Positions 13,078 to 31,029 of a DNA stretch of 60,786 bases are shown piece after piece; the stretch's first letter is position 1, and every line of letters begins with the position of its first letter. The notes under the pieces are model-generated. The model was not told the origin of the DNA and did no database searches. It was given only the letters and a program-made list of their open reading frames with translations. A program made the translations under genes and the position numbers. Source of the DNA: Pancytospora philotis (Eukaryota > Microsporidia); contig JALRLY010000256.1 of assembly GCA_023647555.1 (NCBI GenBank), positions 1 through 60,786 of the forward strand. Direction: 5' to 3'.

Positions 13078-13779
13078 AAGGGCTGGCCGCCCGCGATTTT
13101 AATGCCGCAGTGTGGCTCGGGCCTGGCATCAGCACAGGCGCTGAATACAGAAGCAGCAAGCTAATAAATCTTCGTATTTTTATTTGGTGCGCATTTATCA
13201 CACAATATACTAGTTATTCGTTGCTGTAGGCACGCGCTCAAGTCTGCTCTGTAGCAAACAATTGCATCACAAGTCACGTGCGGCTGCAAGCAGAGGCCGT
13301 GTACGTGCCCCTTTAGCTGAATTGATATGCATTTGCTTGACAGATTGCGATAGCTATCATTTTGATCGCGCCTAGATCTTTGATCAGTAATGCGTGTTGG
13401 CTACATTTACACGTTTGTTCGATGAAAATAGGGCGAAAGACGCAAACAGGCGGTTGAGGCGCACCGCGCAGTGCTGATCTTTCTACCGGCGCGTATGTGT
13501 TCTAACAGACGCGCTCTTTGCCCGGCAAAGACTGCATGGACAGCTTCAGCGTGGGTGATCGCCGTAAACATTCGATGAGAATGCCAGAGCTTGCAGCAGT
13601 AGCAAAGCGGACCATGCGCTTGGCACTTCGCACGCTGCTGCGCGAAGATCCCGGGTGTCTGGCCGCCATGCCATGCGCCCGTCTAGACCGCGGGACTAGC
13701 ACGCGGCCCCGGTGCCCAGAGCAGCGCGCGAACAGCAGCAGAAAGACCGCCGCGAAAGCAATGTCAATCCAAACTTTAA
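13078..13779. other. Gene-free stretch, 702 bp
   Basis: No convincing gene is seen. Two overlapping opposite-strand frames of 66 and 100 codons around 13502-13820 are Arg/Ser/Cys-rich, have no start signal and run into the next gene, so I treat them as chance. The stretch holds the upstream regions of the phosphatase gene and the 3' flank of the zinc-finger gene. No tRNA is visible. Confidence 0.5.
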
Positions 13780-14286
13780 TTATATACCATTGGGATGGGC
13801 CTTACTCATGTGATACTTGAGCCCGTTGCTATTCCTGTATGCCTTCTGGCAGCTCCCGATCTGGCACACAAACGGCTTGTACACGTTCTCCTTGTCCTTG
13901 CTGTGCCCGTGCGTCATGTGGTACTTGAGCCCGTGGGACGACGTGTAGGACTTGTTGCAGCCGGGGCGCGGGCACACATGCTTGCGGTCCTGCGCCGAGT
14001 GCGTCGAGATCTCCTGCTCCTGCACGGAGTCGGACATGTCGTACTGCTCCCCGATGCTGATCTCGTTCATGAACTCGTCGAAGTTGAACAGGACTTCCTT
14101 GTCCTCGGCCGCGTCGGGGCTGAAGAGCGCGTCGTCCTCGAGCCGGAAAAGCGTCCGCTCGATCGCCTTGTCCTCGTCGCTGAGCAGATGCTTCTTCTCC
14201 TCGAAGCGTTTCTTGCGCGTGTAGTGCGTGGCTCTCAGATTCTCGAGCAGCGACTCGTAGCTGAAACTCTTATCAAAATTACTCAT
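13780..14286 (-). CDS. Two-finger C2H2 protein, SFP1-like
   Basis: The 168-residue product has two C-terminal C2H2 fingers of the split Sfp1/JAZF1 style: CPRPGCNKSYTSSHGLKYHM then CQIGSCQKAYRNSNGLKYHM. The repeated NGLKYH/HGLKYH signature is typical of fungal Sfp1, the regulator of ribosomal-protein and ribosome-biogenesis genes. The N-terminal 100 residues are charged and acidic (DEDKAIERTLFRLEDD), perhaps an activation segment. The frame is open upstream for 56 more codons, but the ATG at 14286 is preceded by AAAATATTTTGCCC, the local start signal, so I start there. With many ribosome genes in the window an Sfp1-type role is attractive, but it is inferred from the finger pattern only. Confidence 0.82.
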   Translation of the reverse strand: MSNFDKSFSYESLLENLRATHYTRKKRFEEKKHLLSDEDKAIERTLFRLEDDALFSPDAAEDKEVLFNFDEFMNEISIGEQYDMSDSVQEQEISTHSAQDRKHVCPRPGCNKSYTSSHGLKYHMTHGHSKDKENVYKPFVCQIGSCQKAYRNSNGLKYHMSKAHPNGI

Positions 14287-14524
14287 CTTGCGGTTGGGCA
14301 AAATATTTTTTACAAGAGGACTATTAAAGGAGCAGAGGAAGACGGGGCGGGCGCGCGGCGGGCCGGGAGAGGGGGCGCGGGGAGCAGCATTGCAGAATGC
14401 ACTATAGTAGATGGGCAATAAAGCTACGGCGGAGCCAGCGCGCAAGATTCCCACACTCTATCCCGGACACGTATTTTTATTAAAATTTGATTCATTACTT
14501 CATCAGGGATAAGTGAACTTTGCC

Positions 14525-14943
14525 AAGCTGCGGCGCCACCCCGGGCTTGGCGCCGCTTATCTGCGGGCCTTTCGACCGCCAGCGCTTCTTATTTGGCTGC
14601 TGCGCCGGAGCTTTGCATCACGCCCATGCAAAATTCTCCGGCTGAGCAGTAGAGTCGCACAGATCGAGCAGTGCGTGCTTAGCGCCCATCATAGAGCTGG
14701 ATGTAGTGCATGCAATGGCTATGCGTACTACTATAGCGGGGACATGTCTCTCTCCTCTCTGGCTCAACGCGCGGACTAGCTCCTCTATTAGCAGGAGATT
14801 CTCGACATGCGCGATGGTCGATGACCGGTGCTGAGCACTGGCACCGCGGTATACCGGGGCGGCTCGGCGCCGCTCGCGGAGCCACTCTTGTCGATATCGT
14901 ATTCTAGAGCGGCGGATGCGCTGGATCAACGCATGGAATCCGC
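14525..14943. ncRNA. Candidate structured RNA: chain of hairpins
   Basis: At least six stems follow each other. 14530-14556 has a perfect 9-bp stem GCGGCGCCA/TGGCGCCGC. 14598-14649 has three stacked stems of 5, 6 and 7 bp with small internal loops. 14703-14731 pairs GTAGT-GCAT with ATGC-ACTAC. 14780-14797 pairs CTCCT/AGGAG. 14825-14841 has a 7-bp stem with a 3-nt loop. 14912-14943 pairs GCGGAT and GCG with CGC and ATCCGC. I do not see diagnostic motifs of U2, U6, 5S, SRP or RNase P RNA, so family and strand are unknown. GC-rich DNA forms some stems by chance. Confidence 0.3.
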
Positions 14944-15517: not shown

Positions 15518-16228
15518 ATGGTTTTTATGGTCGCGCCGGTTTCTTCGGTTAGGAAGCAGGAATACGAGGCGAAGGTCGACGCCCTCAGACAGAAGCAGAT
15601 GGACGCCTTCGAGAAGCGCGTTGTCAGCAACACTGCGCACGCTGAGACGATGACCGTGAAGATCCTCGAGAACATCAAGGCGCAGAAGGCGGCCGAGGCG
15701 GAGAAGATGCGCAACGCCGACTCCTTCTACGTGCCGGCCGAGCCCAACTTCATCGTTGCGATCCAGATCCGCTCCAAGTGCAACGTCGGCCCTGCGCCGC
15801 GCAAGGTCATGGAGCTGATGAGGATGACCAGCATCAACACCTGTGTGATTCTGAGGAACAACAAGAGCACCAAGAACATGCTCGCGAAGGCCAAGGACTA
15901 CATCGCCTTTGGCTTTATCGACTACGAGCTGCTGAGAAGGCTCGTCTACGAGAGAGGCTTCGGCAAGATCGGCCACTCCAAGGTCAAGCTCACCAACGAG
16001 AACATCGAGGAGCACTTTGCGGGCAAGTACAGATGCATCGAGGAGCTCGTGTACGCCATATACAGCGGCAGCGACGACATCAAGCAGATCCTCAATTTCC
16101 TGTACCCGCTCAAGCTCAGCGTCCCGCTCGGTGGCTTCAAGGGCAAGAAGTCTAAGAACTACCTCGAGGGCGGTGCCTGCAACAACCACAAGGAGCTGCT
16201 CGGCAAGCTGCTTGAGAGGATGATATAA
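15518..16228 (+). CDS. RPL7: Large-subunit ribosomal protein uL30 (RPL7)
   Basis: RPL7 (uL30) is a 60S protein. The 236-residue product shows the eukaryote-specific basic N-terminal helix (residues 10-65) followed by the uL30 fold: FIVAIQIRS, RKVMELMRMTSINTCVILRNN and KAKDYIAFGFIDYELLRRLVYERGFGK, with the conserved C-terminal block HKELLGKLLERMI. The length agrees with yeast Rpl7 (244 aa). The first ATG at 15518 is preceded by CCCCA and two AAAATTTT boxes. A second in-frame ATG at 15527 would remove only three residues. No intron is needed, although RPL7 genes of many fungi have them. It is convergent with the next gene, 79 bp away. Confidence 0.97.
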   Translation: MVFMVAPVSSVRKQEYEAKVDALRQKQMDAFEKRVVSNTAHAETMTVKILENIKAQKAAEAEKMRNADSFYVPAEPNFIVAIQIRSKCNVGPAPRKVMELMRMTSINTCVILRNNKSTKNMLAKAKDYIAFGFIDYELLRRLVYERGFGKIGHSKVKLTNENIEEHFAGKYRCIEELVYAIYSGSDDIKQILNFLYPLKLSVPLGGFKGKKSKNYLEGGACNNHKELLGKLLERMI

Positions 16229-16307
16229 TTAAATTACGTCCAGACTATTCTGTGGGTACGGTGTGTCGGCTCATCTGTAGTTTATTGCTGCTGCTTTGAA
16301 GCCATTG

Positions 16308-17780
16308 TTAAGCAAGAGATCCGAAGAGCAAAAGGGCCGAGGGAGAGCCCACCAAAAATGCATAGCGATCAACTTTTTTAATTTGCATGATGTTGTTGAA
16401 AAATTCGAGAAACTCTGCCGACTCTATTTTGATTGGCTGGTTGCTCAGCAGCTCAGCGGCTCCAACGCCGTCGCCGCTGCTGTACAGCGTGTCTAGGCAG
16501 CTGCGCCCCGAACGGGCATGGCCCTCAGTCAGCTTGTTGAACAAGTAGCTGCAGTTCTCCCCGAGGAGATCGCTGTACTGGTTGCGGGGATCTGTGGCGC
16601 GCAGCTTCAGCTCGGACACTTCTCTGACCGCCGTGCTTTCCTTCAGAGCGGACCGCAGCCCGAAGAGATCGACTGCGTGCCCGAGGCAGTTCGTGTCCAT
16701 GAACCGCTTGATCTTCTGCTCGATGGTGGCCAGGTCGTGCTCGTGGTTCCGCTGCAGCGAGGAGCACTGTGCGCTCATGACATCGCCCGTAACGATCATC
16801 GGATCGCTCCACAGGAAGGCGTTGTTGTAGATCTGGATGTTCTTGATGCTGAGCTGCTTCATCAGCTGCAGCGTGTTCGCGCACAGGCAGAAGTACCTGC
16901 TGAGGAAGAGGTGAATGAGGTCTATCTCGTAGTTCTCAGTGAAAGCCGTCCTGAAGCTTACGTACAGCGCGAGCACGAGGTTCTTCTCGGTCCGCGACGC
17001 GATGAGCAGCGCGAGCAGTATTTTGTGGTTAATAAACGACGGGGACGCCGTGTAAAGCGCAAGCATCCGCTGCAGCAGCTCCTCGCTGTAGCCGCGCCGC
17101 AGGTAGGCGATCAAAACATCGTAGTTGGGCTGCCCAGTTGATTCGAGCCCGGTGGTGCTGAGGATCTTGCGGAGTTCACCAAAATCGATGGTGTTTAGGG
17201 CCATTTTAGTGGCGAGGATCATATCCTTGTCTTTGAGCAGCGTGTACCAGCGGTAGTTGCTGGACCTGCGCTCGCTCAGCAGCAAGCCGCGTGCGAGCGC
17301 ATATTCGTAGAGCCGGAAATCGTCGATCTCGTCGATGAGCTTGTCGAGGCACTTTGCGGCATCGCACTCGCCGGATGCATCGGGCCCCGCCAGCGCGGCA
17401 TCAGCGAGCGCTGGTGCTTCCGCGGCGCATCTGAGAAGCCAGTCGCGCCGGACCGCCTTGTATATGAAGCTGCCCCCGGTGCACCGGGACACGGCTGCTG
17501 CCAGCTCATCCACGCTGAGCCTCTCGTCCTTAATGAGTATGCGGACGAAGAACGGGTCGATGTGCACCACCCGCTCGAGAAATAGCAAAAATAGCCTCTT
17601 GCTGTTCGCCAGATCCATGTAGAGGCTCAGGAGGATGTACTGCGGCTGCTGGTCGCACACCTTGATGGCGTGCTTCTGGGCGGCATCGTGCTTCCCGCCC
17701 AGAATGCTGGCAATGCAGCTGTCCTGCGGGCTGAGCAGCCTGTGCAGGAACGTCTCCAGGCTTTTCGCGAACTTCACCAT
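16308..17780 (-). CDS. MDM20/NAA25-like auxiliary subunit of NatB acetyltransferase
   Basis: The 490-residue protein is all-helical and TPR-like. The family call rests on the segment around residues 290-330, where NYEIDLIHLFLSRYFCLCA is followed by LMKQLSIKNIQIYNNAFL. This fits the conserved Mdm20/NAA25 pattern (solenoid helix, then LNIKNIQxDTLSHLL). Mdm20 anchors the catalytic subunit Nat3 on the ribosome to acetylate N-terminal Met-Asp, Met-Glu and Met-Asn. It is shorter than yeast Mdm20 (796 aa), as usual for reduced genomes. The frame extends 21 codons upstream from a GTG. The ATG at 17780, with two A/T boxes of the AAATTTTT type within 40 bp, is preferred. Another TPR scaffold remains possible. 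Confidence 0.6.
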   Translation of the reverse strand: MVKFAKSLETFLHRLLSPQDSCIASILGGKHDAAQKHAIKVCDQQPQYILLSLYMDLANSKRLFLLFLERVVHIDPFFVRILIKDERLSVDELAAAVSRCTGGSFIYKAVRRDWLLRCAAEAPALADAALAGPDASGECDAAKCLDKLIDEIDDFRLYEYALARGLLLSERRSSNYRWYTLLKDKDMILATKMALNTIDFGELRKILSTTGLESTGQPNYDVLIAYLRRGYSEELLQRMLALYTASPSFINHKILLALLIASRTEKNLVLALYVSFRTAFTENYEIDLIHLFLSRYFCLCANTLQLMKQLSIKNIQIYNNAFLWSDPMIVTGDVMSAQCSSLQRNHEHDLATIEQKIKRFMDTNCLGHAVDLFGLRSALKESTAVREVSELKLRATDPRNQYSDLLGENCSYLFNKLTEGHARSGRSCLDTLYSSGDGVGAAELLSNQPIKIESAEFLEFFNNIMQIKKVDRYAFLVGSPSALLLFGSLA

Positions 17781-18097
17781 GCGCGGAGGCGCAGCAAATT
17801 TTTGCCGAAAAATTCGCCGCTCCGCAATACCGTTGTCTAACACGTCTGCGCCATTGCGTTTGCATTCTCTTTATAGCTGGTACTGCTATGCATTGTATTT
17901 GCTAGTCAAGCGCATTGTAAATCTATTTCCGCAGCCAGAAAACGCGAATGCATGTCGAATAGTAAATCTCATTTCCGCCTGTGACTTTATTTTCTTGGCT
18001 TTTAGCTTTGCATCCAAGCGCGCCAGGACTCTATCCAGCATCACGCCCAATCCATTGCCTGCCAATCCAAATATCGGACGCGCTGATTGGAGGCCCA

Positions 18098-18964
18098 ATG
18101 GCAGCGCCGGCGCAGGACAAGGAGGAGTTGCCGGAGATCAAGATGAAGCGCGCGTTCATCGAGAAGCAGATGGCGCTGCTGCAGTACCTCGAGGAGGCCG
18201 AGCGGCTCGCGCTGGTGGACCTCATCCACGACCCGCTCGTCGTGCACCGCGTCGAGGACTACGCGGCGGCGTACAAGGAGCAGAACGACGTGCGGCGGAT
18301 CAAGCGCGTGCTGAAGAGCATGTACAAGCTGAAGCGCAAGGGCGGCAACATATCGCAGTACATCGAGCGGCTCAGCACCGTGCTGCCGCCGCCCGCGGCC
18401 GAGAGCGCGCCCGAGCGCGTCGCGTACACGGCCCGCAGAAACGCGCGACCGGCGCTCTTCCCGCTCGTGCCGATGCCGGAGCCCACCGCGCTGACGCGCG
18501 AGAACGCAACGAGGGACTTCAAGGAGCACATCCGGCGCATCAACAGCTTCCCCAAGTTCAAGATCCAGTACCCGAGCTTCACGCGCTCGCTGACCGTCTC
18601 GCCGTCGCACAGTCAGCTGATCCGGAAGATCGACAAGCAGGAGGGCCTGCCGCCGAAGGAGCAGCCGCAGCCGAGCTGCACGCTGAACGAGATAACATCG
18701 CCGACGTCCTTCCGCAACGGCGTGCTCAAGAGCGTGGGCAGGTCCGCAGGCGCGCAGCGGCCCAGCACGACGCCGAGCAGCCAGGGCTTCGGGCAGCGGC
18801 GCCCCTTCCCGGGCTCGCCCGTCGAGGCCTTCGGCTACCAGCGCAGCCCCCCGACGCTGAGCCCCGAGAGCATCGAGGAGGCGATCGCCCAGAAGAAGCG
18901 GCGGGTCGAGAAGTCGCGGGAGCTGAACGATAAGAACAAGCACGACTCAATGAACAGCCAGTGA
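18098..18964 (+). CDS. Unrecognised basic protein, 288 aa
   Basis: I do not recognise this protein. Residues 1-95 look helical and charged, with many Leu, Glu, Lys and Arg. Residues 95-160 hold a Pro-rich segment, and the C-terminal 120 residues are Ser/Pro/Arg/Gln-rich and probably disordered, ending in a basic stretch (QKKRRVEKS) that could be a nuclear localisation signal. The start at 18098 follows AGGCCCA, matching the CCC start motif; an upstream frame extension begins with GTG and is ignored. Its GC-rich codon use is like the neighbouring housekeeping genes. A nuclear role is only a guess from composition. Confidence 0.75.
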   Translation: MAAPAQDKEELPEIKMKRAFIEKQMALLQYLEEAERLALVDLIHDPLVVHRVEDYAAAYKEQNDVRRIKRVLKSMYKLKRKGGNISQYIERLSTVLPPPAAESAPERVAYTARRNARPALFPLVPMPEPTALTRENATRDFKEHIRRINSFPKFKIQYPSFTRSLTVSPSHSQLIRKIDKQEGLPPKEQPQPSCTLNEITSPTSFRNGVLKSVGRSAGAQRPSTTPSSQGFGQRRPFPGSPVEAFGYQRSPPTLSPESIEEAIAQKKRRVEKSRELNDKNKHDSMNSQ

Positions 18965-19244
18965 AATGTCCAAGTTGAATTGAGATGCTACTGGCGCATC
19001 GCTGCGTGCTATGATAGTTACTCTGCAAATAAATTTAGTAAATTGAAATCGCTAGCTTTTGTATTATTTCACTTCGACTGGGTGCGCTTGCCTCCTATCC
19101 GGGAGCACCCCTGCAAATTACTCGCCGCCAATACCGACTCCTGATTGGTTAGTTTTCTTTTCGTCAAATTAGAAGTTGTGAAGCTGATTGGACGGGGGAC
19201 GGCGCTTTTTCGCAATAAATGGCACCGGCGGCGCTCGCAGTCGT

Positions 19245-21041
19245 ATGGCGCTTCTGGGACCGAAGGACATGCAGGCTGAGAATGCCACGGCGGCGGCCGA
19301 GGCGCTCGGTGCGCCGAACAGAGAGGCGGCGCTGGGCAGCCGGCCCGCGCCGCTGCCGGAGAGCACGCTGTCCTCGGAGCGGAGCAGCATCGAGTCCGAG
19401 GACATCGAGACCTGCAGCATGTTCAGCGACGGCGAGCTCGCGGAGGACGCGTACGTCGAGGACAAGGCGGTGGGCAGCTACCGGATCGTCAAGAGCATCG
19501 GGGGCGGGAGCAGCGGCAAGGTCGTGCTCGCCTACAACACGGAGACCGAGGAGCGCGTCGCGATCAAGATCGTGCGGCGCAAGAGCGGCGAGCTGGGCGC
19601 GGAGGCCGACCGGCGGATATACCGCGAGGTCGTGATATCGACGCTGCTCAACCACCCCAACATCGTGCGCCAGCTGGACTTCCTGTACAACGACTCGTAC
19701 TTCTTCCTGGTCTTTGAGTACGTGAAGGGGCAGCAGCTGTACGATGCGGTGCTCAGGAGCTCGTTCATCAAGGAGGACCAGGCGCGCAAGTACTTCCGGC
19801 AGATCGTGTCCGCCGTGGACTACGTGCACCGCAACTGCATATGCCACCGCGACCTCAAGATCGAGAACATCCTGATCGACCACAACGACAACGTGCGGAT
19901 CATCGACTTCGGGCTGTCCAACTTCTACGACAACAAGCTGATGCTGAAGACGTTCTGCGGGAGTCTGTACTTCGCCGCGCCGGAGCTGCTGCTGGGGCAG
20001 CAGTACAGCGGGCCGGAGGTGGACGTGTGGAGCCTCGGCGTGGTGCTCTACGTGATGCTCTGCGGGAAGGTGCCCTTCGACGACGAGAGCGTGTGCGTGC
20101 TGCAGGGCAAGATCAAGAGCACGCGCTTCGAGTTCTGCCGCGCGCTCTCGCCGCAGGCGCGCGACCTGATCGTCAGCATGCTGAGCACCGGCGATGCGCG
20201 GCTCAGCCTCGACGACGTGAAGAAGTCCGCCTGGCTGAACATCGACCACGAGCACATCGTGCACAACTACATGATAGCGCGCCAGCCGATCCGGAAGCTC
20301 AACCCAGAGTGCCTGACGGCGCTCAAGGCGGTGCTCGCCTTCGACTTCGACGATGTGGAGGACGAGCTGCGCAACTTCGTGGATCTCTGCAGCGCGGAGC
20401 TCGGCTCGCTCGAGGGGATCTACCTGACCAAGCGGCCCATCGTTTCGCTCTACTACCTGCTCGTGGAGGACTACTGCGTGCGGCCCGAGCGCACGCGCAA
20501 CTTTGCTGCCGAGCCCTGCACGGACACCTCCGAGAGCGACGAGGCGCACGGCGGCGCGGGCAGCATGCCCGCGGTGCTGCACAACTTCGTGAACTTCGTG
20601 CTGGCCGGCTCGCACGACGAGGTGTACAAGCGCTACTTCATCAAGAGCGTGTTCAAGCGCAGCCCGGCCATCAGGCCGCAGCAGACGGCGCAGCCGTCCT
20701 GGCCCAGGATCCGCAAGTCCTACTTCAAAGGCTTCTTCAAAGGCATCCGCGTGCGCAACATCGGCTCGCACAACGCGCTCAAGAAGACGGTGCTGGACAT
20801 ATTCGGCAAGCTGGAGATCATATACGAGGCCAAGGAGAAGAGCTACTACTGCTCGTACTTCGACAAGGACGAGGAGTGCTTCTTCAAGATCTCCATGTAC
20901 TACAACGTCATACTCTCCGAGTACTACCTCAACGTCAAGCTGCTGAACAGCAAGGAAAAGCGCTTCAGAGAGCTCTTCGGCGTTATACAGACTATGCTGA
21001 ACAACAGGACATGCCCGGTCGGAGCGCCACAGCCCGAGTAG
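19245..21041 (+). CDS. KIN1/PAR-1/MARK-type serine/threonine kinase with KA1 tail
   Basis: This is a protein kinase of the CAMKL group. The kinase domain covers about residues 79-330. The glycine loop is GGGSSGKV, the catalytic lysine is in VAIKIV (Lys108), the catalytic loop is HRDLKIEN at residue 201, DFG is at 221, and the activation loop ends TFCGSLYFAAPE, the KIN1/SNF1/MARK style. The far C-terminus (YYNVILSEYYLNVKLLNSKEKRFREL) resembles a KA1 membrane-binding domain, which favours KIN1/MARK over SNF1. Such kinases control polarity and exocytosis. The frame is open to 19188, but that codon is TTG. ATG 19245 is taken as start, with ATG 19269 as an alternative. An equally long antisense frame overlaps it and is a codon-bias shadow. 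Confidence 0.93.
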   Translation: MALLGPKDMQAENATAAAEALGAPNREAALGSRPAPLPESTLSSERSSIESEDIETCSMFSDGELAEDAYVEDKAVGSYRIVKSIGGGSSGKVVLAYNTETEERVAIKIVRRKSGELGAEADRRIYREVVISTLLNHPNIVRQLDFLYNDSYFFLVFEYVKGQQLYDAVLRSSFIKEDQARKYFRQIVSAVDYVHRNCICHRDLKIENILIDHNDNVRIIDFGLSNFYDNKLMLKTFCGSLYFAAPELLLGQQYSGPEVDVWSLGVVLYVMLCGKVPFDDESVCVLQGKIKSTRFEFCRALSPQARDLIVSMLSTGDARLSLDDVKKSAWLNIDHEHIVHNYMIARQPIRKLNPECLTALKAVLAFDFDDVEDELRNFVDLCSAELGSLEGIYLTKRPIVSLYYLLVEDYCVRPERTRNFAAEPCTDTSESDEAHGGAGSMPAVLHNFVNFVLAGSHDEVYKRYFIKSVFKRSPAIRPQQTAQPSWPRIRKSYFKGFFKGIRVRNIGSHNALKKTVLDIFGKLEIIYEAKEKSYYCSYFDKDEECFFKISMYYNVILSEYYLNVKLLNSKEKRFRELFGVIQTMLNNRTCPVGAPQPE

Positions 21042-21579: not shown

Positions 21580-23514
21580 ATGAAAGTGATGCTGCAACTG
21601 ATCGCTGTTCTGGCGGCCGGCGGCACGGCCGCGGTGCTTTACGAGCACGAGGCCAGGTACGGTGATGACACTGTTGCGTATGCATCGATGGGACAGGGCG
21701 AGCGCTCCGGGCGCGGGCAGGACCGGACGGGCGCCGGGTCGAGCGACCGCGAGCTCGAGCGGCAGATGGCCGAGATCATAAACGACTACCGGAAGGAGGC
21801 CGGGATGGAGCCGCTCGCGAGGGACGGGATCCTCCGCCGCGCCTCGCAGGAGCACGCGCAGAACATGTGCAAAAACGCGGTCCTCGCGCACAGCTCCTCG
21901 GGCGACTCGCTGCACGACAGGGTGCGCAGCCTGGGCTACGAGGTGGTGCGCGTCGGGCAGAACATCGCGAAGCAGGAGAACTCGGACTACGTCGAGCTCA
22001 GCAAGGCGTGGCTCGGGAGCGACGAACACCGCAGGAACATCTTCGGGGACTACACGAACACCGAGGTGGTGACGTGCCGGGACCGCAAGGGCGACCGCTA
22101 CTGGGTGCAGATTTTCGGCCGGAACGCCGGCAACAAGGACATCGGCGTGGCTGGGGACGTGCACAAGATGCAGCAGACGCTGACCCGGAACAACCCGGCC
22201 GTGGAGAACGACAGCTACGTAGTGATGCTCAAGCCCTGCGACGGGAACGAGGATGATGCAGACAACTGCAGTCCGCGCCACAGCAAGGCGCCCGAGAGCT
22301 TCGGCGGTTTCAAGCCGCTGCGGCCGCAGATGCAGAAGCAGCTGCTCGACCAGCTCCGGCAGTTGCTTAACTCGCCGAGCGATGATTCCACAGAGGGCCC
22401 AAGTACCATGCACGGTAAAAAACGCGGAGACACGGATTACAGCATTTCTAGGGTCCACGAGCCCCATAGAACGCACAGCACGGACACATCGACGCGGAAG
22501 CGCAGCTCCTCGGAGATTCCCAGGTCTGTGACGCTTTCCCGCTGGACCGAAGAAAGCAGCTCTACGCGCTCTGCCCACCGCACGAGCTCTTCGCGCAGCT
22601 TGGCAGTCCCATCGATATCCTTTTCTAATACCCCACGCGACACAACCACTGTTTACTCTACGGTTACAGTCCGCATTTCAGAGCCACACACGGTCTACCA
22701 GACAACCACCGACTACGTGTACAGCTCCCGTTTCTATACGACAGATGCAGGAAGCAGCGCTGCGAGTAGCTCCTACACGGATAGCACGTCTACTGCTTCT
22801 TCATCGGCTTATGTACCGTCCACGACTGCATCTGCTGTTCATCGCACTCACACACCACGCAGCTCAACTGCGTCAAGCACTGTCTCTGTGCCCGCTGCGT
22901 ACATCTCTAGCATAATTGAAGAGATTCTGGGCGATGCGGGCAAATGGTCGCACAAAAGCCCTTTCAGCGCTGATAGCTCATCGGCTAGGAGCAGTATGAA
23001 GCGAACCAGCTCTGCTACCCGCACATTATCATCATCGGTGGAGCGCAGCAGCCCGCAGCAGCCGACAACCACTGAGAGCCCCGTGCCTAATTCAGTGCTC
23101 GTCGACCTGATCAACGCGCTGACGGCAAGCCCCGATATCCAGAAGCTGCAGTGCAAGTGCAAGGACTCGAGCAAGTACAACTGCTGCCCGGGCACAGATA
23201 ATGGCAGCGGCGGCCAGCCTGGCTCAAAGCACACTCCGGCGGGAGGCACGTCCCGGCCCGATAAAAATAAGGGGAATAACCGCGAGGGCCCTGAGCGTGG
23301 AACCCATAGCAGCGATCCAAGGCCCAAGGCGAACCGCGGCCCGGTGAAGAAGAACCAACCGCTTCCGGGCATCCCCAAGCAGGACCTCGTGTCGCTTCTG
23401 CATGGCCTTCTAAAGGAAAATGAGTTCAGCATCAAAATTACCGACGGACAGACGAATTCAGGCGAGACCAGCAAGATCGAGATCGATAAGGCGCTTCTGG
23501 GGAACGACGAGTAA
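21580..23514 (+). CDS. Secreted CAP-domain (SCP/PR-1) protein with Ser/Thr-rich mucin-like tail
   Basis: The 644-residue product begins with a likely signal peptide (MKVMLQLIAVLAAGGTAAVL). A CAP domain follows at about residues 55-180. It shows ERQMAEIINDYRKEAGMEPL, the HAQNMCKNAVLAHSS block with the metal-binding His, RVGQNIA, and AWLGSDEHRRNIF with the second His. The rest is low-complexity: Ser/Thr-rich from about 260 to 510, likely O-glycosylated, then a Cys cluster (LQCKCKDSSKYNCC) and a Gly/Pro/Lys-rich tail. It could be a spore-wall, polar-tube-associated or host-directed protein. CAP proteins of fungi can bind sterols; whether this one does is not visible. The chosen ATG is the one that exposes the signal peptide. 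The upstream frame adds 18 non-hydrophobic residues. Confidence 0.88.
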   Translation: MKVMLQLIAVLAAGGTAAVLYEHEARYGDDTVAYASMGQGERSGRGQDRTGAGSSDRELERQMAEIINDYRKEAGMEPLARDGILRRASQEHAQNMCKNAVLAHSSSGDSLHDRVRSLGYEVVRVGQNIAKQENSDYVELSKAWLGSDEHRRNIFGDYTNTEVVTCRDRKGDRYWVQIFGRNAGNKDIGVAGDVHKMQQTLTRNNPAVENDSYVVMLKPCDGNEDDADNCSPRHSKAPESFGGFKPLRPQMQKQLLDQLRQLLNSPSDDSTEGPSTMHGKKRGDTDYSISRVHEPHRTHSTDTSTRKRSSSEIPRSVTLSRWTEESSSTRSAHRTSSSRSLAVPSISFSNTPRDTTTVYSTVTVRISEPHTVYQTTTDYVYSSRFYTTDAGSSAASSSYTDSTSTASSSAYVPSTTASAVHRTHTPRSSTASSTVSVPAAYISSIIEEILGDAGKWSHKSPFSADSSSARSSMKRTSSATRTLSSSVERSSPQQPTTTESPVPNSVLVDLINALTASPDIQKLQCKCKDSSKYNCCPGTDNGSGGQPGSKHTPAGGTSRPDKNKGNNREGPERGTHSSDPRPKANRGPVKKNQPLPGIPKQDLVSLLHGLLKENEFSIKITDGQTNSGETSKIEIDKALLGNDE

Positions 23515-26464: not shown

Positions 26465-26958
26465 TAGGGTAAAATTTTCGCCACGCTACTATAGACTGGG
26501 TGATCACGCCTGTGGGCGAGCGCGATCTACTGGAAGATTTCTAGTGCATTGACTAGGCGAGCTATTCCCTGCACTGCGAGTGTAGAAGTACATTCGTCTT
26601 GCGTGATGCTTTAGCTTGTGTGCACACCAATCCTATGCTTGCTCCACGAGTAGAGTGAATGCGAGCCGGCTATATGGCGCAATTTACTGGAGATGGCGAA
26701 GTTTGAGGTGTTTGCAATGAACTCTTCTAATGCGAATATTGACCATGCTCAGCAGAGCGTGCACCAGGTATCGCCTATAAAGACGCGGTGCGCCGCACAA
26801 TGGTACATCACAACTGATCGAATCTATTGCAAAGTGATGGAAAATTTTGGAGGTTCAAGCTGCACAGTGAAGCACGAAATAAAAAACTACTGCCGTAAAA
26901 GAGTAGCAGCCAAGCTAAATACCGGCTCGGATTGCTGCGCGTATAATTTAAGAAGTAT
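26465..26958. other. Gene-poor spacer, 494 bp, with a weak 89-codon frame
   Basis: A plus-strand ATG frame covers 26693-26962. Its product is AT-rich in codon use, has no recognisable motif, lacks the start signal and overlaps the stop of the next gene, so I do not call it a gene. An AAAATTTT box at 26841-26848 lies inside it. No tRNA is visible. Confidence 0.45.
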
Positions 26959-28137
26959 TTAATCCTCAGATAGACTGCGTTTTACGCCACGCTTAGTAGC
27001 CTGGGCAGTAACCGGCTTCTGCTTGATACGGCGGATTGCGTGTTCGACCAAGAGCGCCAGCAGCTTAGGCCGCGTAATCTGGGCCTCAAACGCTTCACGC
27101 GGAGCTACTTGGCCATCATATTCATAGCCTGCAATATTACGGAATTTCAAGGGGTTCAGGCGCCCAGCATCGAGCATTTCATTCAGTTTATCTACGCCAA
27201 ACCAAGATTTACCGGCCAGTTTAGTGCGGGAGTACACGCTATAGGCCAGCAAAGAGTTGACTTCCTTCACTTTGGAGCAGAAAGACTCTGCCTCCTCGGT
27301 CGAGTAAAGCCTCACATCTTCAGGATCCACAACGTTTGCCGAGACGAGCGCCTTCAGAACATCCTCGCCGGACATATTCACGGTGTCGTATTTGCACGAG
27401 GCCTCATTTGCCCCGGGAGAGTTGCTGCAGTCCCTGGTGAATGAATCAATATCACTGAGCGTAATAGCATCAATACTACCAGAAGAGAGCTCCATCGGCT
27501 GCTCTTGTAAAAACGTTGAGTACATTGCTATTAATTCTGCAAGGTGTTTGACATAAAACGCGTTCTCCTTGCCTACCTGCTCGTATTCACTTTTAGATGA
27601 GAGTGCAAACAGTATTCTCTCTGCCGTAAGCTCCGGCTCCATTATCCGGATGAAATCGAAGATGTTTGAGAACGAATCCTTTTCGAAAGCGCCCTGCAGT
27701 CTCTTAGCAGAATCCATTTCTTTGAGTTTGGAGTAATCGCCACTGTGATCTTTGTCCCGCTCAAACCTTTGCAAAACTGGTAGATCGGGAAAGAAGAACC
27801 TGCCAAAATCAGAGCACTCAGACATCGCTTCCTTCTTAAACCCTTTGCATAATTCGCTATAGCCGTCTGCACCATCCGAGGCATAAGCACGGGTGAATCT
27901 TTCTAAGAAATAGAGAAGAAAAGCGCCCGCCTCATCATGCGACGGCAACGCAAGAGGCGATGCCTCAGACGCACTAGCTTGTTGAATCACAGCGGGCTGC
28001 CTCTCACTCCCCGCAGGCGTCGACTCTGCTGAAGCTTTATAACTGAAGTAGTTAGAGCACAAACAGCCACCGCTCAAGATATCGCTCAGCGCTAGAATAC
28101 TAAGTGCTCCAACGGTATAAGTCCTCGTCGAGGCCAT
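26959..28137 (-). CDS. Membrane-anchored or secreted lineage-specific protein A (392 aa)
   Basis: I do not recognise this protein outside the window. It starts MASTRTYTVGALSILAL, a hydrophobic signal or anchor segment (residues 7-27) closely similar to the N-termini of the two genes upstream of it. An Ala/Ser/Pro/Glu-rich linker follows to residue 68. The rest (about 320 residues) is a mixed helical domain unlike the tails of the other two, ending in a basic segment (ATKRGVKRSLSED). It is the first of three same-direction paralogues. The start is preceded by AAAATTTT (28145-28152) and by a CCCGTTACCCC block shared with the other promoters. The stop lies within AAGAAGTATTTAAT, an element found downstream of all three. 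Codon use is more AT-rich than in the housekeeping genes. Exported effector or surface protein is an inference. Confidence 0.85.
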   Translation of the reverse strand: MASTRTYTVGALSILALSDILSGGCLCSNYFSYKASAESTPAGSERQPAVIQQASASEASPLALPSHDEAGAFLLYFLERFTRAYASDGADGYSELCKGFKKEAMSECSDFGRFFFPDLPVLQRFERDKDHSGDYSKLKEMDSAKRLQGAFEKDSFSNIFDFIRIMEPELTAERILFALSSKSEYEQVGKENAFYVKHLAELIAMYSTFLQEQPMELSSGSIDAITLSDIDSFTRDCSNSPGANEASCKYDTVNMSGEDVLKALVSANVVDPEDVRLYSTEEAESFCSKVKEVNSLLAYSVYSRTKLAGKSWFGVDKLNEMLDAGRLNPLKFRNIAGYEYDGQVAPREAFEAQITRPKLLALLVEHAIRRIKQKPVTAQATKRGVKRSLSED

Positions 28138-28174
28138 AGGGACAAAAATTTTCCAGTTTTTGTGTTCCCGTTAC

Positions 28175-28192
28175 CCCCTTTTTGAAAAGGGG
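28175..28192. repeat. Perfect 8-bp inverted repeat in the promoter of family gene A
   Basis: CCCCTTTT and AAAAGGGG face each other with a 2-bp gap. The promoters of the two paralogues have degenerate versions (CTCC, T-run, AAAGGGG at 29400-29420 and 30993-31011). It is part of a shared promoter block and may be a binding site for a dimeric regulator or simply a duplicated spacer. Confidence 0.5.
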
Positions 28193-28271
28193 CATACAAT
28201 GCTGCTCTTAAACGTTAGCAACAACGGAGCCCGCAGCCTAGTTGAACTCAGGACAAAAAACCGCTTTGCAC

Positions 28272-28291
28272 AACTTGAAGAAGTATTTAAT
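28272..28291. repeat. Conserved 20-bp element downstream of family gene B
   Basis: AACTTGAAGAAGTATTTAAT occurs here and, letter for letter, at 30270-30289 downstream of gene C. A close copy spans the stop of gene A (26945-26963). It could be the 3'-end processing or termination signal of the family. Confidence 0.6.
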
Positions 28292-28314
28292 CGTAGGAAA
28301 ATAATGGAAGTATT

Positions 28315-29364
28315 TTAATAGTTAGGGAAATACAATTTTGACACTTTTATTAAAGCTGCGTCATGCTCTTTCTTCATCTCTTGCTGGTTATACTCGTGCT
28401 CCTCCTTCAGTGCTTTCAAATCCTCATCGTACTTTTCCTTTCTTCTCTGAATCGCCTCCTCCAGCTTGTGCCCTGACAACCGATCCCTAAAATGCTCTAG
28501 ATGGTCATTGTAGTTAATATCAAGTCTCTCCAAAGCAGTTTTTTGATAGCGATTCTGCTTATCCCATTCTTCCTTGTTCAGTCTTTGCTGCTCCTTCAAA
28601 GCCTGATCACACTCCTGAAGCCGCGGATTAATCTCTGTTTGAATTCCACCAGTAGTGTTATCCTTTCGCTCCCTCTCCAACTGCTTCCGAGCATTCTCAT
28701 CCAGCTCGTGCTCACTCAGCACCGATGGCCTCACTGGCAAAACCTGAGGCTGCCGCCTTGGGAAGTTCTGCTCCACAAGCTCTCTATCACGCTTCCGCTC
28801 CTCATTCTTTGCCCGCTTCCAATCCGCACGGCCGCTCTGCGCCTCCCGGCGAACGAGCTCATCCTGCGACAGCTGTGGCCAATCGCGATGCGACATCTCC
28901 CCCTGGTCCTGCAGATCTCCGTAATGCATTTGGTGGATCCTGGAAACATTATGACGCGGCGCCTCCCAGTCTACTGGTTCCCTTGGAGACGAACGCAGCG
29001 GATGCACCCACCCATCCTCCAGCGGCGAAAACTGCGTAGATTCCGTCTTCGGCATTTCTGACGAAGTAGACCCCCGATGCGGGCCCTCACGGAAGGGCAT
29101 TTCCTGCAGATGCTCTGTCACAGGCTGCTGCGACGGGGCCTCGTAGGAGCAGCTCGGCACCACGTCGAGCTCCCGCTTGCTCGCCGCGGTCGGCGAAGCG
29201 CTGCTCGCCGCAGACGTGTCCGCGGGCGCTGCGTCTGTTGACGTCGCGGGCGCTGCGGGCGCGTCCGCTTTGAAGTGGTTGTAGCTCCAGTAGCAGCCAG
29301 CTCCGATGATGCCAAGCGCCAGAACACTGACCACGCCAATGGCGTATGTCTTCGTCGAAGCCAT
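28315..29364 (-). CDS. Membrane-anchored or secreted lineage-specific protein B with charged coiled-coil tail (349 aa)
   Basis: Function is unknown. The N-terminal 100 residues are nearly the same as in protein C: MASTKTYAIGVVSVLAL, a hydrophobic segment to about residue 25 (GIIGAGCYW), then an Ala/Thr/Ser/Asp/Pro-rich linker, RELDVVPSCSYEAPSQQP and EHLQEMPFREGPHR. After residue 99 the sequence departs completely into a Gln/Glu/Arg/Lys-rich region with heptad-like spacing, probably a long coiled coil (about residues 195-345). The start ATG is preceded directly by GTGCCC, the local start motif. The frame stays open upstream but holds conserved promoter sequence there. It is the middle gene of the tandem family. 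It could be exported to the host or anchored in a membrane with the tail exposed. Confidence 0.85.
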   Translation of the reverse strand: MASTKTYAIGVVSVLALGIIGAGCYWSYNHFKADAPAAPATSTDAAPADTSAASSASPTAASKRELDVVPSCSYEAPSQQPVTEHLQEMPFREGPHRGSTSSEMPKTESTQFSPLEDGWVHPLRSSPREPVDWEAPRHNVSRIHQMHYGDLQDQGEMSHRDWPQLSQDELVRREAQSGRADWKRAKNEERKRDRELVEQNFPRRQPQVLPVRPSVLSEHELDENARKQLERERKDNTTGGIQTEINPRLQECDQALKEQQRLNKEEWDKQNRYQKTALERLDINYNDHLEHFRDRLSGHKLEEAIQRRKEKYDEDLKALKEEHEYNQQEMKKEHDAALIKVSKLYFPNY

Positions 29365-29438
29365 GGGCACAGCATCCCTCTGCTTTTTATTTCCCGTTAC
29401 TCCTTTTTTATTTAAAGGGGTACGCGCCAATGGCATTG
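29076..29438. repeat. Duplicated block, copy 1: N-terminal coding module plus promoter
   Basis: This block and 30661-31029 are near-identical. The coding part (29076-29364 against 30661-30949) aligns without gaps and with few mismatches. The promoter part continues with the GCACAGCATCCCTC block, a T-rich run and AAAGGGGTAC. Similarity ends abruptly at 29076, where the coding tails begin to differ. Confidence 0.85.
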
Positions 29439-30325
29439 CGGTAGATCGCAACGTGATTTGTATGCAGCAGAATGGCGTGGGCAGAAGCGGAGGCAAGCAG
29501 CATGGTTGCGGCGCACTTAGGTGCTAGCCGTATTTATGAGTTTTATGCGTTTCGTTCAAATGTAACGCGACCCATGCATCGGACGGATGTACCGCTTCTC
29601 ATAGCAAGGATGCTTCGACTATCGACTGCGTTTCTCGCCCGATCGGATGCGTAGCGGCGCGAAAACAGGTAAAAAAGCCTCCGTAGCCTCTCTTCAATGT
29701 AACAAGCGTACCTTGAAATACCAGAGCATGCGAAAAATAGCGTTATAATAGCCGCAGCTACTTCACCGACATCATTTACCCATGAGTAAGGCCTGTGTTA
29801 TGGTCTCTCGCCATTTTCTGGGCTGGATAGCTCTCAGTACGACATGTAATGGCTCTGAGTGCTGATGGAGCACGGAAAACGCGGATTCGGGTCGAAAATA
29901 AATTTACTTCGATCATCAGACGCTACTCAACTACCTGTGCTTGCTTCTGTATATATCATGCGCATCCATGTGGCAGCTCTTCCACCACCGTCACGGGCTG
30001 CACCTCAGCGCTTTCTCTTGAGCCCCACTCCATACTTGCACAAGATTGACCTAGATGTTCTCAGCAGCATTCTGTGCTATGTAGCTAGGCAGTGACAAAT
30101 GCAAATAGAAGTTAGCTGCTCCTCAAACACCCAGGTGACACAGCAGCGAGTACCGACAGCGCATAATGCTGGTGGTAAATAATAATTACATAGGCATTAG
30201 CTCGTTTCTGAAAGCTGGCGAGGAATCCCGCGGCTTAGTTGAGCTCGAGGCACAATATGCGCAACGTATAACTTGAAGAAGTATTTAATAATAGTAGAGA
30301 TAACAGTGTATTGATGCTTTGGTAA
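29439..30325. other. Gene-free stretch inside the family cluster, about 890 bp
   Basis: Only short frames without start signals are seen. The composition is AT-richer than the gene-dense parts. A segment near 30229-30289 resembles 28231-28291 (TTAGTTGAGCTC against CTAGTTGAACTC, then the shared 20-mer). So the 3' flank was duplicated together with the gene. Confidence 0.6.
30270..30289. repeat. Second copy of the 20-bp element, downstream of family gene C
   Basis: Identical to 28272-28291. It lies 36 bp beyond the stop of gene C, against 23 bp for gene B. Confidence 0.6.
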
Positions 30326-30949
30326 TTAAGAACTCTGCATCCTCTTATGAGCGTTTTCATGGTAGTTCAGCCGCTCCTGCCATGCCCGGGTTAGCTTTTC
30401 CTTCAGCGCATCTCGCTCCCTAGCTTGCCTCTTTGATACGCGCTCAATATGCTCTTGACGCTCTTCTGCTGTCGTACCCAGTCCCGGACGATTTAGCGTA
30501 TGCTCTACATTGGGCCATTCAGCCTCATGCCTCTTCTTCTGGGTTTCCCACTCCTGGTCTAGCCGGGTTTTCAGTTCCTCCAGATCCTGCTTCCGCTCAA
30601 TTATAGAAAGCGGTTTCTCCCGGTTATGTTTTTGCTCAGGAGAAAACTGCATAGACTCCCGATGCGGGCCTTCACGGAAGGGCATTTCCTGCAGATGCTC
30701 CGTCTTCGGCTGCTGCGACGGGGCCTCGTAGGAGCAGCTCGGCACCACGTCGAGCTCCCGCTTGCTCGCCGCGGTCGGCGAAGCGCTGCTCGCTGCAGAC
30801 GTGTCCGCGGGCGCTGCGTCTGTTGACGTCGCGGGCACTTCAGGCGCGTCCGCCTTGAAGTGGTTGTAGCCCCAGTAGCAGCCAGCTCCGATGATGCCAA
30901 GCGCCAGAACACTGGCTACCCCAATAGCGTATGTCTTTGTCGAAACCAT
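30326..30949 (-). CDS. Membrane-anchored or secreted lineage-specific protein C with charged coiled-coil tail (207 aa)
   Basis: The first 100 residues repeat those of protein B with about six changes (MVSTKTYAIGVASVLAL, GIIGAGCYWGYNHFKAD, linker, RELDVVPSCSYEAPSQQP). The tail (residues 100-207) is different: Arg/Glu/Gln/Lys-rich, with IIERKQDLEELKTRLDQEW and ERVSKRQARERDALKEKL suggesting a coiled coil. The ATG at 30949 follows GTGCCC as in gene B. The frame is open two codons further to a GTG, which I reject. Near-identity of DNA and promoter to gene B shows recent duplication or gene conversion of the 5' half. Function is unknown; the hydrophobic N-terminus suggests export or membrane anchoring. 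Confidence 0.83.
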   Translation of the reverse strand: MVSTKTYAIGVASVLALGIIGAGCYWGYNHFKADAPEVPATSTDAAPADTSAASSASPTAASKRELDVVPSCSYEAPSQQPKTEHLQEMPFREGPHRESMQFSPEQKHNREKPLSIIERKQDLEELKTRLDQEWETQKKRHEAEWPNVEHTLNRPGLGTTAEERQEHIERVSKRQARERDALKEKLTRAWQERLNYHENAHKRMQSS

Positions 30950-31029
30950 GGGCACAGCATCCCTCCGATTTTTATCTTCCCGTTGCCGGTTCTCCTATTT
31001 TATTAAAGGGGTACTCGCGAATGGCATTT
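30661..31029. repeat. Duplicated block, copy 2: N-terminal coding module plus promoter
   Basis: Partner of 29076-29438. The two copies lie in the same orientation, about 1.6 kb apart, so they could recombine with each other. Confidence 0.85.

Follow-up and report, generated by a model that had tools for sequence, protein, structure and literature searches.

A gene family of the microsporidian Pancytospora philotis that joins a shared N-terminal module, likely kept alike by conversion, to diverged rear parts

Three adjacent minus-strand genes, here A, B and C, in a 60,786-nucleotide stretch of the worm-infecting microsporidian Pancytospora philotis (the whole stretch analyzed, hereafter the window; GCA_023647555.1, contig JALRLY010000256.1) are part of a family of at least 12 genes, which whole-genome searches placed on six contigs of the 3.68-Mb assembly. 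We consider it fairly probable that an N-terminal module (N-module) has been kept alike among several neighboring copies, likely by conversion, with the heads behind it drifting apart, and that B and C are headless members. The build has three parts, namely the N-module, which is hydrophobic and carries an Ala/Pro/Ser linker plus, in most members, a KRELDxVPSF-like motif, a charged stalk built of repeats, and a head some 320 residues long. The head occurs in 10 of the 12 members, A included, and leave-one-out HHalign comparisons recover it at a probability of 99.6-100 in nine of these ten and of 90.1 in C14, the least sure case. Only B and C lack it, being linked to the family by the N-module only. 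A sequence-only reading of the window had proposed one module joined to switched tails, that of A being a third kind. The shared module, the common control DNA and the diversified rear parts are borne out; however, 10 of the 12 members have the same head, and the tail of A is this head.

At the locus, where all features given here lie on the minus strand, gene A (26959-28137; 392 aa) comprises a hydrophobic N-terminus, a short linker devoid of the KRELD motif and, the stalk being absent, the family head (26962-27951; 330 aa), which matched the remaining heads over 302 columns at a probability of 100. Gene B (28315-29364; 349 aa from the family start) consists of the N-module (the first 100 codons, 29065-29364) and a private charged tail (28318-29049; 52% E/D/K/R/H/Q). 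A longer in-frame alternative from an ATG at 29436 is less likely, because the upstream inverted repeat falls inside that extension. Gene C (30326-30949; 207 aa) joins its N-module (first 100 codons, 30650-30949) to another private charged tail (30329-30640; 56% E/D/K/R/H/Q). The KRELDVVP motif lies at 29156-29178 in B, close to where the shared module ends, and, by the genome pattern search, at 30741-30763 in C. When searched as degenerate DNA, KR[EQ]LDxVP gave six genome matches, all in the family, and none for the reversed control, which, for this pattern, rules it out as a general export motif. AlphaFold2 predicts for C an N-terminal helix (5-33, low confidence), a linker and two tail helices (116-152 and 161-206), at a mean pLDDT of 63 and of 64-85 in the tail blocks; modeling of A from two alignment rows (pLDDT 30) gave no reliable head fold.

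Whole-genome searches with B, A, C56, C14, C48_3 and the C48_1 module as the six queries recovered, in total, the 12 genes on six contigs and no others; a search for further copies in the same genome had been suggested by the earlier reading. We found no other use of the module, with all ten matches of B (E <= 0.001) and all nine of the C48_1 module (E <= 1) falling within the 12 genes. None of the 12 proteins had a Pfam match at the cut-off (matches appeared only at E 0.025-0.34). A PDB search by head profile gave nothing convincing (best E 0.098), and searches of 5.8 billion sequences with B and the head profile, which needed exact 5-residue words and in which the best 7996 head-profile candidates were scored, returned P. 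philotis proteins only. The stalks have no clear 3.5 peak of a heptad rhythm. With regard to genome location, the nearest contig end is 12-47 kb away for seven of the 12 members and 2.7-8.8 kb away for the C48 array of five genes, the ends not being known telomeres; the suggested proximity of the copies to telomeres is not seen in the assembly. A microsporidian SSU rRNA model matched nine of 14 control genomes but not this assembly, from which rRNA may be missing.

The near-identity of B and C over their first 100 residues, noted at the outset, holds at 92 of 100 residues (dS 0.16, dN 0.04, dN/dS 0.28; silent-codon differences 10/89, 11%), with a gap-free DNA alignment over 298 bases from the ATG and upstream DNA that is alignable with gaps for about 145 bp. 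The sharp boundary reported behind it stands insofar as the tails beyond are unalignable, but it is slightly softer than described, as the match persists past B's 30-bp insertion at 17 of 21 bases (B 29043-29023, C 30658-30638). Farther on, the two tails score no better than shuffled sequences (z 0.02; 484/1000 shuffles as high), and against the head profile they reach HHalign probabilities of 0.1 and 0.0, respectively. C52 and C6 include stalks rich in the same residues as the B and C tails, and these two stalks compare at z 2.0 (36/1000 shuffles as high). The tails of B and C match the C52 stalk weakly (z 2.2, 32/1000, and z 1.6, 75/1000, respectively), and the shuffle tests do not support homology between these two tails or with the C52 and C6 stalks. 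Genome searches, whose first look let through only one and two candidates for the tails of B and C, respectively, found no other place for the tail of B at E <= 0.1 and none for that of C at E <= 0.01, with a single weak match of the latter on C4 (E 0.05).

Could B and C simply be degenerate genes, which lost the head and are drifting in frames that stay open by chance? Both are indeed headless, no tail relatives were found, the 961-bp spacer between C and B has no separate frame of at least 100 aa, and no head relic lies near either gene (the best near C has 2.6 bits, E 6.4), which fits an old loss. Nevertheless, frames of 349 and 207 codons remain open, the module evolves under a dN/dS of 0.28 between B and C, the upstream and 3' elements are retained, and the tail of C is predicted as two helices, with stalks of similar residues present in C52 and C6; we thus regard degeneration as unlikely.

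The argument for conversion comes primarily from silent sites in the C48 array. Among C48_1, 2, 4 and 5, silent codons differ by 13-24% in the N-module versus 38-65% in the heads (counts at identical residues of 7/53 to 13/55 in the module and of 58/154 to 52/80 in the head). The module lies below the head in all six pairs (Fisher p from 0.003 to 2e-9), which draw on four genes and are not independent, and of which the weakest (p 0.0031) misses the Bonferroni limit for 21 tests. Upstream DNA identity is also raised. At the protein level, the head of C48_5 is 28% identical to that of C48_1, 28% to that of C52 and 27% to that of A, whereas the corresponding module identities are 77%, 48% and 38%. 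As a control, a three-gene tandem family on C43 did not have a lower 5' value (9/57 versus 32/321; 11/17 versus 57/104; 13/17 versus 52/96). Outside the C48 four, one of 15 pairs with both parts reached p < 0.05. Comparing A, C52 or C6 with these four, the module lies below the head in nine of 12 pairs, one of them significantly, which makes some silent constraint or an older exchange possible. C52 and C6, which are on different contigs, do not differ significantly between module and head (22/56 versus 47/89, p 0.13), and conversion between contigs therefore lacks support; gene A lies outside the homogenized module, with a dS of 1.4 to B. C48_3, C14 and C56 were omitted from the module counts as too divergent. 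In the head tree the five C48 heads stand apart from A, C52 and C6 (96/96); in the module tree no fork is fully supported, and the two trees do not conflict outright. From the sequences, then, the module is likely kept alike between several neighbors by gene conversion, and the silent-site pattern fits an exchange ending near codons 50-100.

It might alternatively be posited that there is no conversion and that the genes merely evolve at two speeds, with a targeting module constrained in its protein and partly in its codons, and with heads and tails changing fast. The module protein is constrained in sequence (dN/dS 0.21-0.58 across 36 pairs of nine genes), and the nine of 12 pairs just mentioned point the same way. 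However, the C48 four have a far wider gap between module and head; the same module reaches silent differences of 35-63% when the C48 genes are compared with A, B, C, C52 and C6, which indicates that it is able to change; and the silent difference between B and C is 11%, yet their tails are unalignable. We accordingly give this alternative little credence. Still less probable is the switching of cassettes, whereby a common promoter and module would be joined to interchangeable tails from a repertoire, since one homologous head occurs in 10 of the 12 members and no donor of the B or C tail is found elsewhere in the assembly, which may be incomplete, even if the nearly identical modules, the unrelated tails and the break at about codon 100 in both genes agree with it.

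The common control DNA includes an inverted repeat, CCCCTTT...AAAGGGG, which in perfect or imperfect form precedes 10 of the 12 members, all except C48_3 and C14, and starts 55-63 bp before the ATG. It lies at 28175-28192 before A (CCCCTTTTCAAAAAGGGG; perfect arms of 8), at 29399-29421 before B (one mismatch between the arms) and at 30994-31011 before C (two mismatches), all on the minus strand. CCCCTTT occurs within 150 bp of the start of A, B and C versus none of the 29 other window frames taken as genes. A 3' element, ATTAAATACTTCTT, is found on the same strand at 26950-26963 in A, where it overlaps the stop codon, at 28278-28291 in B and at 30276-30289 in C; its four exact matches in the 3.68-Mb assembly are those behind A, B, C and the C52 member, and a one-mismatch copy lies behind C6. 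Three further one-mismatch sites are outside the family: two mark the stop codons of tandem genes from an unrelated C43 family, and one is in an opposite-strand frame on C36. This rules out family specificity and raises the possibility that the element is a polyadenylation-type signal. Of the common promoter and 3' element described in the sequence-only reading, an upstream element and the 3' element are present in A, B and C, but the latter is not specific to the family.

The N-terminal hydropathy is at least 1.6 in 10 of the 12 members, a level that stretches in three C48 heads also attain. Hydropathy and the low-confidence helix lead us to predict a signal anchor or signal peptide in the N-module. 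The rear parts of the family proteins likely face the host. In the conversion model favored above, tracts would extend from the upstream DNA as far as about codon 50-100, and the module would target the protein to the surface of the parasite or to the host cell interior. The inverted repeat might act as a joint switch of expression, with the heads and stalks binding host partners. Delivery and expression would be held constant by conversion, while the binding part could still change. B and C would likely be headless rod forms, the products of a conversion or replacement that fused the current module with charged helical tails. We can carry this further, albeit only as a doubtful proposal, to a distributed system of fixed delivery and free payload, in which conversion would keep the promoter and anchor uniform throughout a tandem array and a palindromic operator would switch the copies jointly. 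Only the exposed heads and stalks would then diversify in response to the worm, and headless rods would form a second class of product.

Large clade-specific families are already a known kind in microsporidia. Such families, defined by ten or more homologous proteins per genome (PMC5423893, PMC10393165), which the 12 genes exceed, are commonly, but not necessarily, restricted to a clade. The accounts of NemLGF, PanLGF and EbrLGF in nematode-infecting species (Wadi et al. 2023, PMC10393165) describe an enrichment of signal peptides or transmembrane segments, in over half of the members. The present family resembles these three in its at least 10 paralogues, its N-terminal hydrophobic segment, its occurrence in one species so far and its partly side-by-side arrangement, and it may already be among the families in S7 Table of that paper. 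However, the present architecture, 5' pattern and inverted repeat do not figure in the descriptions of those families within the part of PMC10393165 considered here, and the 81 members given there for NemLGF1 in P. philotis, as opposed to 12 here, argue against identity with NemLGF1. InterAE and InterB of Encephalitozoon (PMC4704409), as far as that account was covered, likewise have a signal peptide or N-terminal membrane segment (predicted in the present case) followed by conserved domains, and recombination sites and truncated copies occur in them. In contrast to the P. philotis family, they carry DUF1609 and DUF3654 (neither these nor DUF1686 and DUF2463 had a Pfam match in the 12 proteins at E <= 1). 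They are also subtelomeric; in the present family, seven genes are 12-47 kb from contig ends and five within 9 kb of one end of C48, ends that may or may not be telomeres. Outside microsporidia, the variable surface proteins encoded by Pneumocystis msg, in the portion of PMC5676039 consulted, parallel the family in having a promoter and leader segment (UCS with CRJE) before a diverse rear part and a Lys-Arg motif near the junction. Recombination occurs at that junction, and the silent-site pattern in P. philotis may reflect a comparable exchange. Compared by description, they differ in having one single-copy expression site, with promoter and leader, for family I genes and silent donors devoid of a promoter, whereas each of the 12 P. 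philotis genes has its own start module and 10 have their own upstream element; if the proposal of fixed delivery is true, it would represent a many-expression-site counterpart of the single Pneumocystis leader.

Among the papers listed on conversion, concerted evolution, domain shuffling and expansion, we found no description of a converted 5' module in microsporidian families. An earlier study reportedly concerned how dispersed rDNA and protein-coding genes recombine in microsporidia. A host-facing role of the large gene families is supposed, and little was found on how they diversify. Nematode hosts have no antibodies, and such a diversification would hence argue for a race between effectors and targets rather than for antigenic variation. 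The two speeds inside single genes are visible at silent sites, which makes conversion testable with strains of one species, and the inverted repeat, whose distance from the start hardly varies, provides a handle on regulation. An inverted repeat of this kind also lies before the C55 frame, which has strongly hydrophobic stretches, and before the C70 frame, whose N-terminus is short and moderately hydrophobic.

The three minus-strand genes of the window, A (26959-28137), B (28315-29364) and C (30326-30949), which we place where the sequence-only reading had them, belong to a family of at least 12 genes in the 3.68-Mb assembly (83 contigs, the window being C60). The other members lie on contigs C52 (671 aa), C6 (925 aa), C14 and C56, with five more in tandem on C48 (C48_1 to C48_5; 375-406 aa). 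Six genome searches were combined, with B (10 places) and A (12 rows) at E <= 0.001, the C56 member (11), the C14 member (5) and C48_3 (9) at E <= 0.1, and the C48_1 module (9) at E <= 1; every row falls inside these 12, a lower bound obtained by scoring the best candidates. The C14 member is identical letter for letter to the Pancytospora philotis protein PAPHI01_1765, which a head-profile search retrieved, and this identity assigns the assembly to P. philotis. No relatives outside P. philotis were found with B or the head profile as query. The family is large enough to count as a microsporidian large gene family under the size rule. The consulted portion of one account describes PanLGF1 and NemLGF1, the latter counting 81 P. 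philotis members (PMC10393165), and the present family may already stand under a PanLGF number. InterB was considered as its identity and rejected on domain content, as far as the consulted part of the InterB literature gives it (PMC4704409).

Up to three parts make up these proteins. The N-terminal module runs from a hydrophobic stretch, ending in most members in G-C plus aromatic residues, through an Ala/Pro/Ser-rich linker to the motif KRELDxVPSF or a variant, which is absent from A and C48_3. A charged stalk (61-73% E/D/K/R/H/Q) is built of tandem repeats, 18-48 bp long in C52 and 18-54 bp long in C6, where rows of 81 and 141 were also reported; A and the C48 genes are without it. The head, of 292-330 residues, is present in A, C52, C6, C56 and all of the C48 genes, and with less certainty in C14: matched in turn against a profile of the other nine, nine heads reach a probability of 99.6-100 and that of C14 90.1, while the B tail, the C tail and the two stalks score 0.1 or less against the head profile. 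Accordingly, the tail of A, earlier taken for a third kind, is the family head; the full set of three occurs in C52 and C6, and B and C are headless. The B and C tails contain 52-56% E/D/K/R/H/Q, yielded no stalk-type tandem repeats, and when compared with the stalks gave no support for descent from them.

As had been noticed, the N-termini of B and C are nearly identical (92 of 100 residues equal; dS 0.16, dN 0.04), and the gap-free alignment extends over 298 coding bases, with about 145 bp upstream also aligning with gaps. The sharp boundary claimed for this likeness holds in that nothing similar follows farther on, except that 17 of 21 bases still match past a 30-bp insertion in B. The tails show no likeness to each other, their comparison scoring like shuffled sequence. 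The 961 bp between C and B (29365-30325) contain no separate frame of at least 100 aa, save a possible N-terminal extension of B, and resemble the flanks of neighboring copies at their ends only.

Silent sites suggest how such modules stay alike. Counting codon differences at identical amino acids (Met and Trp excluded; C48_3, C14 and C56 dropped from module counts), we found the module less diverged than the head in all six pairs of C48_1, C48_2, C48_4 and C48_5, which, being drawn from four genes, are not independent: 10/60 against 58/154 for C48_1-2 (Fisher p 0.0031), 11/58 against 57/117 for C48_1-4 (1.4e-4), 7/55 against 53/88 for C48_1-5 (1.1e-8), 11/60 against 61/119 for C48_2-4 (2.2e-5), 7/53 against 52/80 for C48_2-5 (1.8e-9) and 13/55 against 49/86 for C48_4-5 (1.2e-4). 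B and C differ at 10/89 silent codons in the module and have no comparable tail. High identity spans about 100-150 bp upstream to codon 50-60 in the C48 genes and to codon 100 in B and C. The C48_5 module is 77% identical to that of C48_1 versus 38-48% to A or C52; its head, in contrast, is about equally far from all three (28% identity with C48_1, 27-28% with A or C52). The module tree places C48_5 with C48_1, 2 and 4 (94/90) and gives full support to no fork; the head tree puts it outside their group (93/99), pairs A and C6 (93/89), and separates the five C48 heads from A, C52 and C6 (96/96). Trees by themselves are no proof of exchange, and the case is built on silent sites and lengths. We favor gene conversion, acting on the 5' part inside arrays, as the probable cause; protein constraint alone cannot reduce silent divergence. 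Among the other 15 pairs with both parts, p falls below 0.05 in one (C52-C48_1, 0.013), and C52-C6 gives 22/56 against 47/89 (p 0.13), which does not support exchange across contigs. When A, C52 or C6 is paired with each of these four C48 genes, the module value lies under that of the head in 9/12 pairs, and thus the module may be under some milder constraint at silent sites; that codon constraint instead of conversion keeps its divergence low is unlikely, as the modules of the C48 genes differ from those of A, B, C, C52 and C6 by values of 0.35-0.63. In a control tandem family on C43 the first 75 codons show no reduced silent value.

The N-terminal hydropathy is at least 1.6 in 10/12 members (C52 has 1.57 and C6 1.54), as is a window in three C48 heads. 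AlphaFold2 predicts for C, at low confidence, a continuous helix at 5-33, followed by a disordered linker and, in the tail, two helices with blocks of pLDDT 64-85. P. philotis is a gut microsporidian of the nematode Oscheius tipulae, per the consulted part of its description (PMC5179134). In Nematocida, host-exposed proteins are enriched in targeting signals, large gene families and clade-specific proteins, according to the portion consulted (PMC5423893), and by this rule the family is likely host-facing. Toward the end of the module, the KR may be a kexin-type site, like the one proposed for Pneumocystis CRJE in the consulted part of PMC5676039.

An inverted repeat, CCCCTTT...AAAGGGG, begins 55-63 bp upstream of the ATG in 10/12 genes, with perfect arms in six, one mismatch in two and two in two; it was not found upstream of C48_3 and C14. 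In C6 the arms are altered jointly (CTCC...GGAG). Within the window, CCCCTTT lies within 150 bp of the start in A, B and C and in 0/29 of the remaining frames treated as genes. Across the genome, exact matches to CCCCTTTN(2-9)AAAGG occur at 11 separate places (17 matches, both strands; reversed control, 1 match). Six of these belong to promoters of the family (A, B, C52, C48_1, C48_2, C56), with 37-43 bases from site to ATG. The pattern also precedes two other frames: on C55 it lies 38 bases before the ATG of a 409-aa frame whose strongly hydrophobic stretches reach 2.25 in the best window, and on C70 it lies 62 bases before that of a 427-aa frame with a short hydrophobic N-terminus (best N-terminal window 1.42); both are possible further members of one regulon. 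Three places, on C22, C23 and at C56:18249, have no listed frame within 400 bp downstream. We infer that the repeat is an operator; alternatively, it may form a 5' UTR hairpin. The 3015-bp surroundings on C22 and C23 are identical letter for letter, which may reflect either duplication of a chromosome region or a duplicate in the assembly.

The C43 tandem family (13311-14738, 16074-17501 and 17923-19323) has frames of 466-475 aa with, by eye, hydrophobic starts. At the stop codon of two of its genes stands ATTAAATACTTCTA, one base off the 3' element of the A/B/C family, which suggests a common 3'-end signal. A frame between two copies (C43:15152-15886), with masked letters nearby, may be part of a retroelement. 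Near the C48 array, a 627-aa minus-strand frame (C48:15795-17678) with a Gly/Ser-rich middle has a C-terminus that we take to be like a GH19-type chitinase. The window neighbors are ordinary by Pfam (29 frames scanned), including ribosomal L3, an E1 ubiquitin-activating enzyme, 14-3-3, a mechanosensitive channel, PGK, a PI kinase and a subtilase (48797-50473), among others. A plus-strand 644-aa frame (21580-23514) contains a CAP/cysteine-rich secretory domain at residues 66-179 (PF00188, E 5e-12), the long remainder being without a Pfam match.
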